A stretch of DNA of 21,263 nucleotides, from the IMG/VR virus record IMGVR_UViG_3300037054_000175, positions 1-21,263 of that record; one strand, 5' to 3'. Below are positions 235 through 10,970 of the stretch, piece by piece. A program made the translations under genes and the position numbers. Positions within the stretch are counted from its first letter, which is position 1. Each line of letters begins with the position of its first letter. A model generated the notes under the pieces. The model was not told the origin of the DNA. It saw nothing but the letters and a program-made list of their open reading frames with translations, and made no database searches. Source of the stretch: a virus.

Positions 235-894
235 CTACAGCGGAGGCAGTTTTTCAAGAGCGATGGCCGCGGTCTGGTCGCCTTGAGCGGCTGACTTCAA
301 AAGCAGATCATGAGATTTGACCAGGTCTTTCTGGACGCCATCTCCATCGCGATACCTCTCACCCATACGGAGCTGACCATAAGCATCTCCTTTGGCTGCC
401 AAATCTTGGTTGAACTTCAACGCTGCACTGGCGGCATCCTTCTTCCTTTTGGCAGAGGCGGCCTTGACAATAGCCTGCTCTTCAGGAGTCAAAGGACGTG
501 GTGGAGGAGGAGTTGAAATAATTCCATAATCAAGCTTGTTGAGGGTTCTGCTGGCACCAAGCACAGTGGTAAATGTGTATGTTCCAACTGGTTTTGCGAC
601 ATAGTGACTCTGCGGCCAAATCCTGTCATCTGCCGAAACCTGATAGGGAAAGTTCACCAAGAAAAAATCCCGACCGTCGGGAAAATCCAGAACGTCATTA
701 TCACCGTACCACCCACAAATAAGGAGCCCATCAGGTACAACCTGCGAAATCACACCCGAAAAATTAACCCACTGCGGCGAAGTTTGATTCGTCACCCCAT
801 CCACAATCCGCCATGGGTCCCGATCCAGCCCCGCCACTGAAAATCTTTGAGCCGGGCAGAGACACAATGAGCAAAGCCAAAAAAAGAGCACCAT
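235..894 (-). CDS. Secreted Sel1-repeat protein
   Basis: About 219 residues if started at 894. The N-terminus (MVLFFWLCSLCLCPAQ) is a short hydrophobic signal-like segment, so export to the periplasm or surface is likely. The C-terminal ~60 residues hold one clear Sel1-like repeat (GDAYGQLRMGERYRDGDGVQ, then a second helix with KSAAQGD), a TPR-like helix pair used for protein binding. The middle is unassigned; a proline-rich stretch (TPPPPRPLTPEEQ) and a charged Ala/Lys helix precede the repeat. An in-frame start at 966 would add 24 residues and hide the signal; the open frame runs back to 1236 but there crosses repeats and a palindrome and overlaps the repressor gene, so it is not believed coding. 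AAGG lies very close to the 894 ATG, so a GTG at 891 is also possible. Probably a host gene flanking the phage, less likely a phage-carried one. Confidence 0.65.
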   Translation of the reverse strand: MVLFFWLCSLCLCPAQRFSVAGLDRDPWRIVDGVTNQTSPQWVNFSGVISQVVPDGLLICGWYGDNDVLDFPDGRDFFLVNFPYQVSADDRIWPQSHYVAKPVGTYTFTTVLGASRTLNKLDYGIISTPPPPRPLTPEEQAIVKAASAKRKKDAASAALKFNQDLAAKGDAYGQLRMGERYRDGDGVQKDLVKSHDLLLKSAAQGDQTAAIALEKLPPL

Positions 895-920
895 AACCTT
901 CACAAAACCACAATAGTTGG

Positions 921-1141: not shown

Positions 1142-1702
1142 TTATGATTCACCGGGACGATTCCTTGGATCCTCAGACGAGGGCTTTGGTGAATAAGTTG
1201 TCCGCGAAGCAACGCCTGGCGCTCGCCCGGAGGCACGCCCGCCGCGCTTTGATACTTTTCGCTTGGTGTCAGGCGACCCCTTCGTTAGCGCGCGACTCTC
1301 AGATGCAAAAATGTCTCCGGTGTTTGGCGAAGTTTTCAAAGAACTAGGCCGCTTCGGACGGCCCCCTCCGCTTCCCTGAAGCAGTGAATCAATGAGATCC
1401 TCGGCGAGCTCCTGTTTTCCTGGCGGGAGTTCTAAAAATCTTCCAGCAACGGCGATCGCCTTATCATGTTTTTCAGTGGCGCCAGGCAAACCGACCTCCG
1501 CCGCGCGCCGCATGCGGTCAACCTCCCCGCGTACGGCGCGCCGGATCTGTTGCAGCGTCCGCATTCCGCATTTCTGATATCCCCCTAGATATTTCCGGAG
1601 CGTCTCCGTTTTGACAAAGGAAAGATCGGCGATCTTGTCCAGGGTCAAATGGCTTTCATCGAGCAGCGCCCGCAGTTCCTCTGCCTGCCTCGGAAAGTTC
1701 AT
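1142..1702 (-). CDS. Phage repressor-like HTH protein
   Basis: About 186 residues from the ATG at 1702 (1711 is an alternative with a G-run directly against the start). Residues ~15-55 form a helix-turn-helix: LTLDKIADLSFVKTETLRKY, then a basic helix around TLQQIRRAVRGEVDRMRRA. A helical middle is followed by a Ser/Pro/Lys/Arg-rich, probably disordered tail of ~70 residues. It is the only minus-strand gene of the phage, convergent in position with Mu c: it faces the early operon across a shared operator/promoter region at 1737-1789, so the likely role is repression of early transcription and of itself. No LexA/S24 peptidase domain is visible, so RecA-driven self-cleavage is not expected. Assignment rests on the HTH and on position, not on a recognised repressor family. 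Confidence 0.7.
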   Translation of the reverse strand: MNFPRQAEELRALLDESHLTLDKIADLSFVKTETLRKYLGGYQKCGMRTLQQIRRAVRGEVDRMRRAAEVGLPGATEKHDKAIAVAGRFLELPPGKQELAEDLIDSLLQGSGGGRPKRPSSLKTSPNTGDIFASESRALTKGSPDTKRKVSKRGGRASGRAPGVASRTTYSPKPSSEDPRNRPGES

Positions 1703-1736
1703 CTGATTCATCCCCAAAAATATTTTAAAAAAAGTG

Positions 1737-1765
1737 TTGACCGTCATACCATGACAACCGATAGT
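1737..1765 (+). promoter_or_regulatory. Candidate early promoter
   Basis: TTGACC at 1737-1742 and GATAGT at 1760-1765 are separated by 17 bp. The -10 lies in the 8-bp space between the two operator arms. Transcription would begin near 1771-1773, which coincides with the ATG at 1772 of the small HTH gene, implying a leaderless early mRNA. Confidence 0.5.
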
Positions 1766-1776
1766 CATGGTATGAC
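1743..1776. promoter_or_regulatory. Double operator between repressor and early operon
   Basis: GTCATACCATGAC (1743-1755) and its exact inverted copy GTCATGGTATGAC (1764-1776) are separated by AACCGATA. Each arm is itself dyad-symmetric (GTCAT-N3-ATGAC), so the array reads as two dimer sites with centres at 1749 and 1770, 21 bp or two helical turns apart. A further 10-bp palindrome TGACTAGTCA (1773-1782) overlaps the second site. Binding would cover the -35/-10 region of both divergent promoters. Confidence 0.8.
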
Positions 1777-1789
1777 TAGTCACAGTCAA
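1761..1789 (-). promoter_or_regulatory. Candidate repressor promoter
   Basis: Read on the minus strand, TTGACT (1789-1784) and GACTAT (1766-1761) are separated by 17 bp. The -10 overlaps the -10 of the opposing early promoter almost completely, so the two promoters cannot be used at once. The predicted leader of the repressor mRNA is about 45-55 nt. The -10 is weak (3 of 6 consensus matches). Confidence 0.4.
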
Positions 1790-1963
1790 GACAATGAAAC
1801 ACGGAAATGGGCGAAAGTCAAAGGGCAATTAATCGGTACTTTTACGACCGTTCGAAGCGCTGCTCTGGCTTGTGGCTGTCATCCCAATTCTTTTCGCCTT
1901 GCCGCGCGCGGTCAGTGCCCCCGCATCCGGGCATGGCTGGAGGCCAATAATGTCAGAACCTGA
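1772..1963 (+). CDS. Small Ner-like HTH regulator
   Basis: 63 residues, basic, beginning inside the operator. The core (VRSAALACGCHPNSFRLAAR, then CPRIRAWLEAN) has the spacing of a helix-turn-helix in which the second helix follows a CG turn, and the layout resembles Mu Ner: very small, first gene of the early operon, divergent from the repressor. A start at 1751 is also open but lies upstream of the predicted transcription start; no internal start codon exists downstream of 1772 in this frame. No Shine-Dalgarno sequence is present, consistent with leaderless translation. Likely role: turning down early and/or repressor transcription. The Ner assignment is by position and size, not by firm sequence family. 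Confidence 0.6.
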   Translation: MTSHSQDNETRKWAKVKGQLIGTFTTVRSAALACGCHPNSFRLAARGQCPRIRAWLEANNVRT

Positions 1964-2346: not shown

Positions 2347-3114
2347 ATGAACTCCACTATGGAAACAACCAGAAAGCAACAACCTCTGACCAAAATCATC
2401 GATGTCACACCGGCGTTGGCTGGGAAACGCGTAGCTGCCGCTGTGGCTGAAGCCCTGAGATCTGTTGAGGATGCGCGGCAAAAGTGTTTTGTGGCTGGCC
2501 AGCTCATGGCTGAGTTTAAGGAGGCAGTCGGCCATGGAGCCTTCCTGCAGTGGCTGCGTGATAATTTTCCGGACATGTCCGAAGACACCGCCCAGCGATG
2601 GATGATGGCGGCAGGCAATATCATCAGGGCGCTGCCGCCAATCCCGGCCGCGATCGACGTTGAGACGATTTCAATATCACAGATTCTCACGATGCCGGAG
2701 GCTGAACTGTCCGAGAATCAGCGCGAGTGGAAACAGCAATGGTTCGACTTTACGTCGGACAAGACGATCAAAGAATGCCTGGCTGGGGTCTTTGTGGAGG
2801 GTGATTCGGCCTCGCGTGTGGATCGGGCGATCAACGGCAAGACCAAGGGCGGCGCCGGCGGCGACCGTAAGGATTTTCCACTTTTCGTCGCGGTGAAGCT
2901 CAAGGATATGGGGACGCATTTCGGGCACTGGAAGGGCATGACTGAGACGCAGCGCACCGAGGTGAAGGACGTGCTGAGGGCTTCAATCCTCGGGGATGCG
3001 GTGACGTTGCGCGGGCGTAACCGCAAACCGTTCACCTTCCAGACGTGGCCTGATGAAGTGTGCGTTGTCGCCATCGAGGCGCTCAAGGACCGGCTGAAAG
3101 CGAGGAAGGCATAA
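2347..3114 (+). CDS. DUF3102-like phage protein
   Basis: 255 residues. Residues ~60-92 (GHGAFLQWLRDNFPDMSEDT followed by AQRWMMAAG) match the signature of the DUF3102 family, in which a H-G-x-F-x-x-W segment is followed by a helix-turn-helix-like S-x-x-T-A-Q-R motif; such proteins are common on plasmids and phages and resemble the ParB/KfrA-type small HTH proteins. The C-terminal half (residues ~150-255) is basic and unassigned. The gene ends in TAATG, overlapping the transposase start, so the two are probably translated together and may act together in transposition or its control. There is no clear Shine-Dalgarno before 2347; a start at 2359 is possible. Confidence 0.7.
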   Translation: MNSTMETTRKQQPLTKIIDVTPALAGKRVAAAVAEALRSVEDARQKCFVAGQLMAEFKEAVGHGAFLQWLRDNFPDMSEDTAQRWMMAAGNIIRALPPIPAAIDVETISISQILTMPEAELSENQREWKQQWFDFTSDKTIKECLAGVFVEGDSASRVDRAINGKTKGGAGGDRKDFPLFVAVKLKDMGTHFGHWKGMTETQRTEVKDVLRASILGDAVTLRGRNRKPFTFQTWPDEVCVVAIEALKDRLKARKA

Positions 3115-5231
3115 TGAACAGCCGATTTCCAATGGTCGATGGTGAAATTTCCGCGCCGGCCGAACCAGAGACCGGGTTGCCGGCGCCATTTGATTCCAGG
3201 GTGCGCTCAATGCCGGATGTGGAGGCGGGTATGGTGTCGGAAGAAACCTCCGAACGGGTACCGCGGGCTGAGCTGTCCCGCGATGGCGAGGGTTACGCCA
3301 TTGGGTTGCCTCATGTAAACACCACTCCGCAGTCCGGCATTGACCGCCCTCTGGAAGTTACAGATTACGATTGGAAAGAGGCGGAGGCCAAGGCGGCAAT
3401 TTGCCGGGAGTTCCAGCGCATGACCGGCGAGGGCTTCTCGCTGCGCCAGGCCGCAGCGGGATTGGGCAAGTCAGGAAGTTGGTTCAGCGGTCCGGATTCA
3501 CCACTGGCCAGGTTTGAGCGCGAGGGCGTGGCCGGGCTCTTGCCACAGCGCCGCGCGGCAGGCGCGCCGATCACATTTGAAGTGCCGGAATGGTTCATTC
3601 CTGCGGCCCGGTTTTTCTACCTCCTCACCAATCGAACAGAAAACGGCGGTTCCGTGCCTGAATCTATACGCCGCGTCATATCGTTGCCGTGTCTGCCCCC
3701 TGGCTGGACCCGTAAAGTTACCGGTCAGTTTTTAGCGGCGGTTTCTGCCCAGGAAACTCCAGTGTGCCCCGCGGAATTGCGCGATCAGATCCTGGCACGG
3801 GAGAAGGCCGGCCAATCACTCGTGACAGAGCGGATCGCCCGCCAGATCACAGCGCGAACAGCCATCGTCCGCCAGCATCGCCACCCGACAAACGCCGCGC
3901 TTGATTACCTGTGCGCGCCCGGCTCTATGTTTTTCATTCACGATTCCAGGACGGGTGAGCGACGGCCGCCAATGGTCGGCGAAGTGATCGAAGCGGACGA
4001 TGCCACGATCAATTTCCCCGTGTGCGTGCCCTGGACGCTGGGTGGGGATCCGTGCAGCGACAAATACGGTGTAAAGGTTGGCCGGTTCCAATGGCTCGTG
4101 TCCATTGATGCGGCGAGGGGCTACGTGACCGCCTACAGCTACACCATGCGCCCGCGCGGCAGTTACCGCGGCGAAGATGCGCTGGCCCTGGTCCGTGCCC
4201 ATTGCCTCCAGCACGGCAAACCGAAACGTGCCCACTTTGAACAGGGTGTATGGAAGAGCAACCTGGTGAAGGCAGCGCTTGCGGCCGCTGACATCGAACT
4301 GCACACAGTGTGGAGCCCGCACCAAAAGCCGCACATCGAAGGGCTGTTCAACACCCTTTGGACCAAGCTTTCGGTGCACTTCCCCGACGCTCATGTTGGC
4401 CGGTTCCGTGGAGAGCATGAAGCCGCCAATGACTTACTGGTTGCCTGTCAGCGTGGCAGCCGGAATCCGCGCCGCCATTTTCCAATGTTGGGAGATGCAA
4501 TCGCAGCTTTCGACGCGGCTGTCGCGGAGAAGAACCGAACGCCTGTCAACAGCGCCATCGGCAGGTGGATCCCAGAAGAGGCGTGGACAGCGCGACAGCC
4601 CGGCGATCGCCTGGCCGTCGAAACTGAATGGCTATTCAGTCCGTGGCAGCGCACCTGGACCGTGAGGGGAATGTTGGTGGGCGGAAAGGTGCCCCTCTTT
4701 GAAGATTTGAGCGTGCCGTTTGATTTCAGCGCCAATTGGCTGCCGAATTATCACGGCGCGAAGGTCCGCTGTCATTTCGACCCCACCGCCCCCCGTTGCC
4801 ACGCAATGCTGGTTCTTGCGGAGCCGTTCTCTGGCGAGCCCGCCGGCAAGGTGTTGGGGCTGGCACAGCAGATCAATGAGCTGGCCGGTTATGCGCGCCT
4901 GGTGCTCGGCTGGGGTGATGATCCCGCCAATGCCGGGCGGCTGGCCCGCCAGCAGGCCGCGGCGGCTCTGCGGCGCGAGGTCCGCGCGATCGTGCCGGGC
5001 GGCCACGGCTACGCCGCCAGCGAAGAGCGGGATGGAGTAGCCAACGCGATAAAGATTTCTCGCGAGCAGAATCACCAGGAGAAGGAGGCACCGGATCGAA
5101 GTAGGCAACCACAGGTTGCTGAAACCAAGCCCTTAAATTCTTCCACCGCGGAACGCTGCTCGCGAGATTCTGACTTGAAGGAGCGTGAAGCGGCCCTGGC
5201 CGGCGAGGAGTGCGCCCTGGATTTTCTGTAA
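3114..5231 (+). CDS. muA: Mu-type DDE transposase (MuA-like)
   Basis: 705 residues from the ATG at 3114 (TAATG overlap with the upstream stop); Mu A is 663. It joins phage DNA ends to target DNA during integration and replicative transposition. Residues ~85-150 form an HTH/IIbeta-gamma-like DNA-binding region (FSLRQAAAGLGKSGSWF); ~270-440 carry the RNase H-like integrase core with EADDATINFPV (D295/D296), HFEQGVWKSN (E376) and SPHQKPHIEGLFNTLW (E409); ~525-620 form the beta-rich C-terminal Mu transposase domain; the tail is charged and may contact the ATPase. The usual second catalytic Asp appears as Glu (E376). A long N-terminal extension (~80 residues, acidic, Pro-rich) is poorly conserved-looking. 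Followed by the MuB-like gene 24 nt downstream. Confidence 0.93.
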   Translation: MNSRFPMVDGEISAPAEPETGLPAPFDSRVRSMPDVEAGMVSEETSERVPRAELSRDGEGYAIGLPHVNTTPQSGIDRPLEVTDYDWKEAEAKAAICREFQRMTGEGFSLRQAAAGLGKSGSWFSGPDSPLARFEREGVAGLLPQRRAAGAPITFEVPEWFIPAARFFYLLTNRTENGGSVPESIRRVISLPCLPPGWTRKVTGQFLAAVSAQETPVCPAELRDQILAREKAGQSLVTERIARQITARTAIVRQHRHPTNAALDYLCAPGSMFFIHDSRTGERRPPMVGEVIEADDATINFPVCVPWTLGGDPCSDKYGVKVGRFQWLVSIDAARGYVTAYSYTMRPRGSYRGEDALALVRAHCLQHGKPKRAHFEQGVWKSNLVKAALAAADIELHTVWSPHQKPHIEGLFNTLWTKLSVHFPDAHVGRFRGEHEAANDLLVACQRGSRNPRRHFPMLGDAIAAFDAAVAEKNRTPVNSAIGRWIPEEAWTARQPGDRLAVETEWLFSPWQRTWTVRGMLVGGKVPLFEDLSVPFDFSANWLPNYHGAKVRCHFDPTAPRCHAMLVLAEPFSGEPAGKVLGLAQQINELAGYARLVLGWGDDPANAGRLARQQAAAALRREVRAIVPGGHGYAASEERDGVANAIKISREQNHQEKEAPDRSRQPQVAETKPLNSSTAERCSRDSDLKEREAALAGEECALDFL

Positions 5232-5255: not shown

Positions 5256-6278
5256 ATGCACACCGAACTTAAAAAAGTAGCTCAACAGATCAAGGACTAT
5301 CAGGACCGTCGCGGCCTCTCTGATGCGGGCCTGTGCCGTGAGTTCGCCGGCCTTGGCTCCAGCAAGACCTATAAGAACATTCTCAGCGGTGACACCGCCG
5401 AACTCAATATTGACCGGCAGCTTCAAAACTACACCCGCGTCCTGGAGTTGACACGCATCAAGCCGGATCCGGATGCCGGCGCGATCTACGACGATCTGCG
5501 GCATGTGCGCCAGACGTTGCTGGCGGTCAAGGAAGCGTACCTCGAGAAGGGCAACGATCACCTGGTTATCATCGAAGGCCCCACCGGCAGCGGCAAAACC
5601 GAGACGCTGGGATTGGTTGAGCGCGAGTTTGGAAATGCTGCAATCAGGACCGAGGCGCATGGGGGTTGGAAGATTGGCAACAACCCGCTCACAGTGATGG
5701 CCGGGGACCTCCTGGAAGTCGCGCGCTTGCGGGAATATGGAGAGAAATCCGACGGGGCGGAAAACAAGGCTTCCGCCGCGGACTCCCTGCCGGTTTCGTT
5801 TGCAGCTCGGAAGAAGAAGCTTTTTGACGCCCTGAATGAGCGCAAGCGGATCCTGATCATAGATGAAGGCCAGGAGATGGGGCCGTCTTGCCTGAACCTG
5901 CTCAAGAGTATCATCAACCAGACGCCGACGGTGATTGTTCTGGGGGTCATCCCGACAATTTTCCGCCGGCTCGAAAGCAAGAGCTATGAGGACGCCATCC
6001 AGCTCACAGGTAATCGCCTTTACGAGCGGATCCGCATTCCCTCACCGCAGCCGCCGGAAATCACGAAGTTTTTAGAGCGTCGTGGTGTGAAGTTTACGGA
6101 CCTGGACACGGCTGAGAAGTGTGTTGCCAAGCTGGCTGAGATGGCCCCTTACAGCGCCAACTGGAAGTTCATCACCCGATTTGCACGCCGCGCCAAGGCC
6201 GCCAAGGGCGGCTTGGACATCGAGCAGTGTGTTGAGCACATCACGGCCATTGAGAAGGCCAGGAAGGGGGCAGCGTGA
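5256..6278 (+). CDS. muB: Transposition target-capture AAA+ ATPase (MuB-like)
   Basis: 340 residues; Mu B is 312. Walker A GPTGSGKT at 108-115 and Walker B ILIIDE at 199-204 lie in a AAA+ fold. The N-terminal ~60 residues (LSDAGLCREFAGLGSSKTYK) look like the HTH domain that precedes the ATPase in MuB/IstB-type proteins. The C-terminal part (residues ~265-330) is basic and helical. In Mu, MuB binds target DNA as an ATP filament, delivers it to the transpososome and gives target immunity; position right after the transposase supports the same role here. The start at 5256 is the only one of three nearby ATGs that leaves a long frame; no strong ribosome site is seen. Confidence 0.92.
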   Translation: MHTELKKVAQQIKDYQDRRGLSDAGLCREFAGLGSSKTYKNILSGDTAELNIDRQLQNYTRVLELTRIKPDPDAGAIYDDLRHVRQTLLAVKEAYLEKGNDHLVIIEGPTGSGKTETLGLVEREFGNAAIRTEAHGGWKIGNNPLTVMAGDLLEVARLREYGEKSDGAENKASAADSLPVSFAARKKKLFDALNERKRILIIDEGQEMGPSCLNLLKSIINQTPTVIVLGVIPTIFRRLESKSYEDAIQLTGNRLYERIRIPSPQPPEITKFLERRGVKFTDLDTAEKCVAKLAEMAPYSANWKFITRFARRAKAAKGGLDIEQCVEHITAIEKARKGAA

Positions 6279-9983: not shown

Positions 9984-10970
9984 ATGGGAGAGCGCACTAA
10001 TATCGTCTGGACGGATTCAACACACAACTTCTGGCGCGGTTGCACCAAGGTCAGCCCTGGCTGTGTCAACTGCTACGCCGAAACTCTTGTGACGACTCGG
10101 TTGGGAGGCGAGTGGGGCAAGGGCAAACCACGCGTTCGGTCTAAGAGCTTCGATGAGCCGCTCCGGTGGAACAAGAAGCCGAATGTCTGCGGCTGCTGTA
10201 ACGAAGCGTTCAGCACCGAGGCTGGGTTCACCCACCGGCACGGCTCCATCATTCCTGCGTTCCACACCCGCCGCGTCTTCTCCCTCTCCCTCGGAGACTG
10301 GCTGGACGATGAAGTGCCGATCGAGTGGCTGGCCGATATGCTGGACGTGATCCGGCGATGCCCGAACCTGATCTTCCAGTTGCTCACCAAGAGGCCGGAG
10401 AATTTCACTGAACGCCTGACGGCCGTCATGAAGCACATCGAGAACTCTTCCGAGAATCACACATCACGTGGAGCCTCCTTGCATTTGTGGGCGCTTGATT
10501 GGGTTGTTGGCCAAAAGGTTCCATCGCACATCTGGATTGGTGCCAGCGTCGAGAATCAGCCCGAGGCTGACCGGCGCATTCCTGAACTACTCAAGATTCC
10601 CGCTGCGGTGCGGTTCCTGAGCTTCGAACCGTTGCTGGAGGACATTGATTTCAGCCGCTTCACCCCCTGGTTGCCAGCGCATCCTCAATACAACGCCAGC
10701 GAATGCGTTCAATGGGTCATCGTCGGCGGCGAGAGCGGACCGCACGCCCGGCCCTGCAATGCCGATTGGATCCGCAGCGTCGTCAGCCAGTGCAAAGACG
10801 CGAGCGTGCCGTGCTTCGTAAAGCAGCTTGGAGCCAAAATCACTGTGCCACACCCGCAATTTGGAGAGTGGGATAATTGGCACGTGAAAGTGAAAGACAG
10901 AAAAGGCGCTGACCCGTCCGAGTGGCCGCAGGATCTGCAGGTGAGACAATTCCCGGAGGGGGCACAATGA
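9984..10970 (+). CDS. DUF5131 / phage Gp37-Gp68 family protein
   Basis: 328 residues. The start TNIVWTDSTHNFWRGCTKVS followed by PGCVNCYAE, then SKSFDEPLRWNKK, FSLSLGDWLDDEVP, FQLLTKRPENF, IWIGASVENQ, RFLSFEPLLEDI, WVIVGGESGPHARP and CFVKQLGA are the hallmark segments of this family, which is widespread in phages and islands and has no settled function. The three cysteines near residues 20-30 (C-x6-C-x2-C) recall a metal or Fe-S cluster site. Residues ~68-90 hold an insertion (CGCCNEAFSTEAGFTHRHG) that carries three more cysteines and two histidines. An enzyme acting on nucleic acid or nucleotides is an inference only. Confidence 0.88.
   Translation: MGERTNIVWTDSTHNFWRGCTKVSPGCVNCYAETLVTTRLGGEWGKGKPRVRSKSFDEPLRWNKKPNVCGCCNEAFSTEAGFTHRHGSIIPAFHTRRVFSLSLGDWLDDEVPIEWLADMLDVIRRCPNLIFQLLTKRPENFTERLTAVMKHIENSSENHTSRGASLHLWALDWVVGQKVPSHIWIGASVENQPEADRRIPELLKIPAAVRFLSFEPLLEDIDFSRFTPWLPAHPQYNASECVQWVIVGGESGPHARPCNADWIRSVVSQCKDASVPCFVKQLGAKITVPHPQFGEWDNWHVKVKDRKGADPSEWPQDLQVRQFPEGAQ

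Follow-up and report, generated by a model that had tools for sequence, protein, structure and literature searches.

The window, that is, the whole 21,263-nt stretch of DNA analysed (positions 1 to 21,263 of the record IMGVR_UViG_3300037054_000175), contains a 53-base interval (1737–1789) situated between a repressor-like gene encoding a 186-aa protein (1142–1702, minus strand) and the first lytic or early gene, which encodes a 63-aa protein (1772–1963, plus strand). The gap between the two genes is 69 bp. Near the left end of the element, the order is the divergent repressor-like gene, the small gene, a Mu-type transposase (3114–5231, plus strand; phrog_310, E 4e-12) and a MuB-type AAA ATPase (5256–6278, plus strand; phrog_296, E 1e-5; AAA_22). 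The same element carries Mu-type virion and Gam genes (Portal_Mu, PF06074, E 4e-39; Phage_Mu_F, PF04233, E 2e-17; Phage_Mu_Gam, PF07352, E 8e-17) and, judged from its sequence, it is a Mu-like transposable prophage. A DUF5131 protein (PF07505, phrog_2045) is also encoded within the early region (9984–10970).

The 186-aa protein weakly matched phage transcriptional regulators over its N-terminal 65 aa (phrog_147, E 0.02; phrog_2967, E 0.022), and its structure prediction was poor (pLDDT 49.5). Its position and these profile matches (E about 0.02) suggest that it is the repressor. No homology to the Mu repressor c was found, and a comparison with the transposase of the element gave a best E of 0.42 for a short match, with no N-terminal similarity, whereas the repressor and the transposase of Mu share a DNA-binding region (PMC3820752).

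Relatives and ends of the element

We found the interval unchanged in a related contig of 38.8 kb (IMGVR_UViG_3300048762_000230), which differs from the window at 4 of 11,243 aligned positions. Viral contigs, searched with five proteins and three DNA patterns as queries, returned no diverged relative beyond this near-identical contig, and a transposase-motif scan gave one match, which was due to chance. None of the proteins of this phage was found in genome contigs, and 50,697 phage records held no relatives of the early proteins. Hence, the viral contigs, genome contigs and phage records provided no diverged relative that could show co-variation between the operator and its regulator.

At the left end, repeats of TGGCCTCTGAATGGGTC at 931 and 953, 22 bp apart (924–965), look like transposase-binding end sites. 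At its right end, in the last 185 bases, the 38.8 kb contig (L094) contains three relatives, again spaced by 22 bp and with the look of transposase end sites. A further copy on the left, GGTAATTATCAGAATGGGTC, at 135 (135–167), agrees with the right end in 18 of 20 bases. The candidate true left ends are thus at about 135 or about 920. Position 1033, which is only where the related contig starts, was discarded as the left end of the phage, as end-like repeats were found further left. Depending on which left end is used, a Sel1-repeat gene between the two candidate sets of repeats (235–895, minus strand) would be a host gene or phage cargo. A perfect 26-bp palindrome, CAAATACCGCATC/GATGCGGTATTTG (990–1015), is located in the stretch that separates the left-end repeats from the repressor-like gene, and is perhaps a terminator. 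Judged by eye, the last 105 or so bases of L094 resemble the initial part of a host gene of the quinone oxidoreductase type, which the right end of the phage seems to interrupt. One candidate right-end transposase site in this contig, GGTCATAAAGTAACC, contains GTCATAAAGTAAC, which is two positions off the GTCAT-N3-ATGAC motif described below and may be due to chance.

Probable operator dyads and predicted promoters

The interval contains two dyads (no strand assigned) of the form GTCAT-N3-ATGAC, O1 (GTCATACCATGAC, 1743–1755, centre 1749) and O2 (GTCATGGTATGAC, 1764–1776, centre 1770), which lie 21 bp apart from centre to centre, each being the perfect reverse complement of the other. The original prediction had described them as inverted exact copies at this distance, and its coordinates proved exact. 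A pair of 5-N3-5 sites with the same arms within 60 bp was obtained in none of 100 dinucleotide shuffles, and a perfect 13-bp inverted repeat with a loop of at most 50 nt occurred on average 0.08 times per shuffle. As read from the sequence, O2 can be extended to a 17-bp palindrome (7-N3-7, 1762–1778). There was no further copy of the dyad in the 38.8 kb contig, where matches with two mismatches occurred at chance level. The half-sites GTCA/TGAC are also concentrated here, with seven in 1737–1789, whereas no other cluster in the window has more than three and shuffled sequences (n = 300) reach a maximum of five. Those outside the dyads include a TGAC inside the rightward -35 box (1738–1741), a GTCA at 1779–1782 and a GTCA inside the candidate leftward -35 box (1785–1788), the last two again with no strand assigned.

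The predicted early promoter reads rightward on the plus strand, with a -35 box TTGACC (1737–1742, 5/6 match), a 17-bp spacer and a -10 box GATAGT (1760–1765, 4/6 match). O1 is located in its spacer, and O2 overlaps the end of the -10 box and also takes in the predicted start point and the ATG of the 63-aa gene. Taken alone, the hexamers are at chance level, with one sigma70-like pair found compared to 0.8 expected. When the dyads were kept fixed and their flanks were shuffled, a rightward match of at least 9/12 was obtained in 15% of cases. Both -35 hexamers (TTGACC and TTGACT) hold a TGAC half-site, and so the hexamers are not independent of the operator.

UP elements usually occupy the register from -59 to -38. 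Such an element, CCAAAAATATTTTAAAAAAAGT (1714–1735, plus strand), ends one base before TTGACC and matches the consensus NNAAAWWTWTTTTNNNAAANNN at all 14 specified positions; it is the only match of at least 13 positions in the window, and the same 22 bases, when shuffled, reach 14/14 in about 5 per million trials (5e-6). The consensus used is confirmed in two published studies (PMC11661796 and PMC2412878). The in-register UP element thus provides strong and independent backing for the predicted rightward promoter, which looks real. The case for TTGACC-17-GATAGT is therefore stronger than had been claimed, the perfect UP element having gone unmentioned in the original prediction.

The candidate leftward promoter on the minus strand, TTGACT-17-GACTAT (1789–1784 and 1766–1761), matches at 8/12 positions and is weakly supported. 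Although the hexamers on both strands are as originally quoted, with exact 17-bp spacers and with -10 boxes that share five of six positions, a leftward match of at least 8/12 was obtained in 86% of flank shuffles with the dyads fixed. Six leftward candidates in the region scored higher with an E. coli-type weight matrix, the values of which are approximate. Since so many shuffles are as good and six rivals score better, a leftward promoter at 1789/1761 is not established. The proposal that the two promoters exclude each other needs this leftward promoter, the match of which is not significant and is outscored, and is accordingly weak.

The predicted starts, at 1772 for the rightward and 1754 for the leftward promoter, give transcripts that diverge. 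This implies that the promoters, if both are real, are overlapping and divergent (back to back), and not face-to-face as first described. In the switches of P2 and 186, the repressor and early promoters are likewise packed into one short interval, but they stand face-to-face, and their transcripts converge and overlap, unlike the divergence predicted here.

The first early gene and its start codon

The ATG of the 63-aa gene at 1772 begins 7 nt past the last base of the rightward -10 box, and an alternative in-frame ATG is present at 1751. We found no significant match of the 63-aa protein in Pfam, PHROG or NCBIfam, no alignment with Ner of Mu, and no match of its low-confidence model (pLDDT 67) among solved folds. 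WD40 matches in the PDB were rejected as sums of many sub-threshold repeats, and Foldseek matches to histones (E > 2) were rejected as deriving from a poor model. The small gene had been called a Ner-like HTH gene, and neither sequence nor fold searches support this; in the absence of a family, Ner or fold match, "Ner-like" is a statement on the position of the gene, which is that of ner.

A leaderless start of the early mRNA at 1772 is plausible, in that it fits the spacing from the -10 box. Of the genes of this phage that were checked, some starts of which may be misassigned, no more than about one in three has a Shine–Dalgarno sequence, and so its absence at the ATG at 1772 is not diagnostic of a leaderless start. 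Folding of the leaderless RNA predicts a weak stem in which two bases of the AUG, U and G, remain mostly paired. Leaderless mRNAs of both cro and cI have been mapped in phage PY54, in which a UP-like stretch lies by the cro promoter (PMC4488713).

A probable repressor operator and its alternatives

Taken together, these features make it probable that the interval is the early operator/promoter of the Mu-like prophage, at which a repressor, most likely the 186-aa protein, would silence the early promoter. Very probably, it serves this virus as the switch between lysogeny and lysis; the device is an ordinary one, and the form that it takes here is compact and otherwise unrelated. A dimeric regulator, for which the 186-aa repressor is the most likely candidate, would bind with one dimer per dyad, and two dimers separated by two helical turns would sit on the same face of the DNA and be able to touch. 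Of the proposal that one tetramer or two dimers on one face act here, the dimers agree with the 21-bp distance, which is two helical turns, while a tetramer is one option among several. A protein bound at O1, in the promoter spacer, should block the rightward promoter, and so should one bound at O2, which overlies the start point, the start codon and the end of the -10 box; dimers on both would bar RNA polymerase. With RNA polymerase barred, the transposition genes would stay silent in the lysogen. Since transcription of the repressor gene also leads away from this interval, the promoter of that gene is probably affected too, which would amount to autoregulation. When repression fails, the 63-aa protein would be the first product, from an mRNA that may begin at the ATG or within a few bases of it, and its position suggests that it may be a lytic-side regulator acting on the same half-sites. 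For the 5-N3-5 format of the operator, there is a precedent in MqsA, which recognizes AACCT(N)3AGGTT (PMC4894380); the format is common to both, and the MqsA half-site differs and belongs to a toxin–antitoxin context. Of the switch as first envisaged, the paired-dyad operator over a real-looking rightward promoter is supported, the leftward promoter is weak, and the face-to-face geometry and the Ner-like HTH are not supported. The locus would offer a compact and legible lysis–lysogeny switch for a Mu-like phage.

We weighed this explanation against several others. The complete original model, in which overlapping promoters exclude each other, one tetramer silences both and the mRNA starts leaderless exactly at 1772, fits the geometry as stated, is backed in its rightward half by the UP element and can draw on the leaderless cro and cI mRNAs of PY54 (PMC4488713). 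It is nonetheless doubtful as a whole: its leftward match is not significant and is exceeded by six other candidates, an absent Shine–Dalgarno sequence is common in this phage, and the AUG is largely paired in the leaderless RNA. A similarly tentative possibility is that the repressor promoter lies further left with the dyads just upstream, as for PRM of lambda, so that the bound repressor would aid its own synthesis. Candidates for such a promoter, for example ATGACG-17-AATATT (start at about 1712) or a TAAAAT box, outscore the leftward promoter first proposed, and a GGGGA lies 8 nt before the ATG of the repressor-like gene; however, the UP element of the rightward promoter already explains in full the A/T-rich stretch that these candidates would use. 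The c and Ner proteins of Mu both act in the space between their genes, and the ner position of the 63-aa gene here could mean that the dyads are primarily the site of this protein, in the lytic-side role of Ner or Cro, while the 186-aa repressor uses other sites. No DNA-binding domain is detectable in the 63-aa protein, and no other repeated sites were found nearby for the repressor, and we regard this arrangement as unlikely.

Because the dyads are inverted exact copies, any RNA that enters from upstream of 1743 can also fold into a hairpin, with a perfect 13-bp stem and an 8-nt loop (1743–1776, plus strand), for which we calculated -20.5 kcal/mol (z -6.2). In the long read-through RNAs, both in-frame AUGs were paired with a probability above 0.99. 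These values would suit a 34-bp inverted repeat that acts chiefly as RNA, either as a hairpin masking the start codon of host read-through transcripts or, leftward, as a weak terminator, and the dyad centres, ACC and GGT, are complementary, which operator function alone does not need. This purely RNA-based role is nevertheless highly improbable, as each arm is itself palindromic, the repeat extends no further than the dyads themselves, as expected of a protein site, and the extra half-sites lie outside the hairpin. The leftward terminator was not convincing, the T run starting only about 9 nt past the full 13-bp stem.

It is also conceivable, if improbable, that both functions are combined in a two-level lock, in which the dyads would serve as the DNA operator for the repressor, and the RNA hairpin would bury both AUGs in transcripts reading through from the host. 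Only RNA begun at the UP-element promoter of the phage, at or near the ATG, would then be free of the left arm. With the start codons buried in read-through RNA, a transposable phage inserted near active host promoters would not be switched on accidentally. A comparable safeguard against read-through exists in some transposons. The end of the repeat at the dyad borders argues against the lock, as does the partial pairing of the AUG in the leaderless RNA as well. If this dual role were true, it would link operator design to the protection of transposable phages from host read-through; if it is absent, the locus is a standard temperate-phage operator.

Returning to the probable repressor operator over the early promoter, a close counterpart in layout is the left end of Mu (c / PcM-Pe / ner). 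There, a divergent repressor gene, an operator region and a small first early gene are followed by the transposase and MuB, an order that is matched here if the repressor-like gene is taken as the repressor. The Mu promoter pair is likewise termed divergent, and the box matches of Pe are also 5/6 and 4/6 (PMC3820752). Unlike here, the intergenic gap in Mu is 235 bp, compared to 69 bp; neither regulator is similar in sequence, the operator of the present phage consists of two short dyads, and its repressor and transposase show no similarity. PY54 has in common with this locus the leaderless first lytic mRNA, a candidate one here, and the UP-like A/T stretch, there next to the promoter of cro (PMC4488713), but it is a telomere phage related to lambda, with a single 16-bp operator and unrelated proteins. 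Lambda-type operators consist of similar dyads placed over the lytic promoter at a whole number of helical turns. The paired, near-identical dyads over the lytic promoter described here are arranged in the same manner, but they are 13-bp 5-N3-5 sites, exact inverted copies, and two rather than three in number.

Among other contigs, paired GTCAT-N3-ATGAC sites were found in three actinophage-like contigs, with a spacing of 29 bp, and in one coding-region repeat, all of which were judged unrelated. A looser search for GTCA-N5-TGAC occurring twice gave 74 matches, almost all inside long ORFs or repeats, and of these only the present phage had an exact inverted pair. The three actinophage-like contigs (L008, 2300–2341; L010, 914–955; L011, 3270–3311) carry exact inverted pairs of GTCATAATATGAC and GTCATATTATGAC separated by 16 bp. 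The ATG of a dyad starts a similar gene in both L008 and L011, and the pair of L010 is found shortly after a serine-integrase-like gene; these pairs may be an operator or an att site, unrelated to the Mu-like phage. In a further contig (L059, 9534–9567), a GTCA-N5-TGAC pair with a 21-bp spacing lies next to two ORFs that diverge, of 134 and 242 aa, and is possibly another phage switch.
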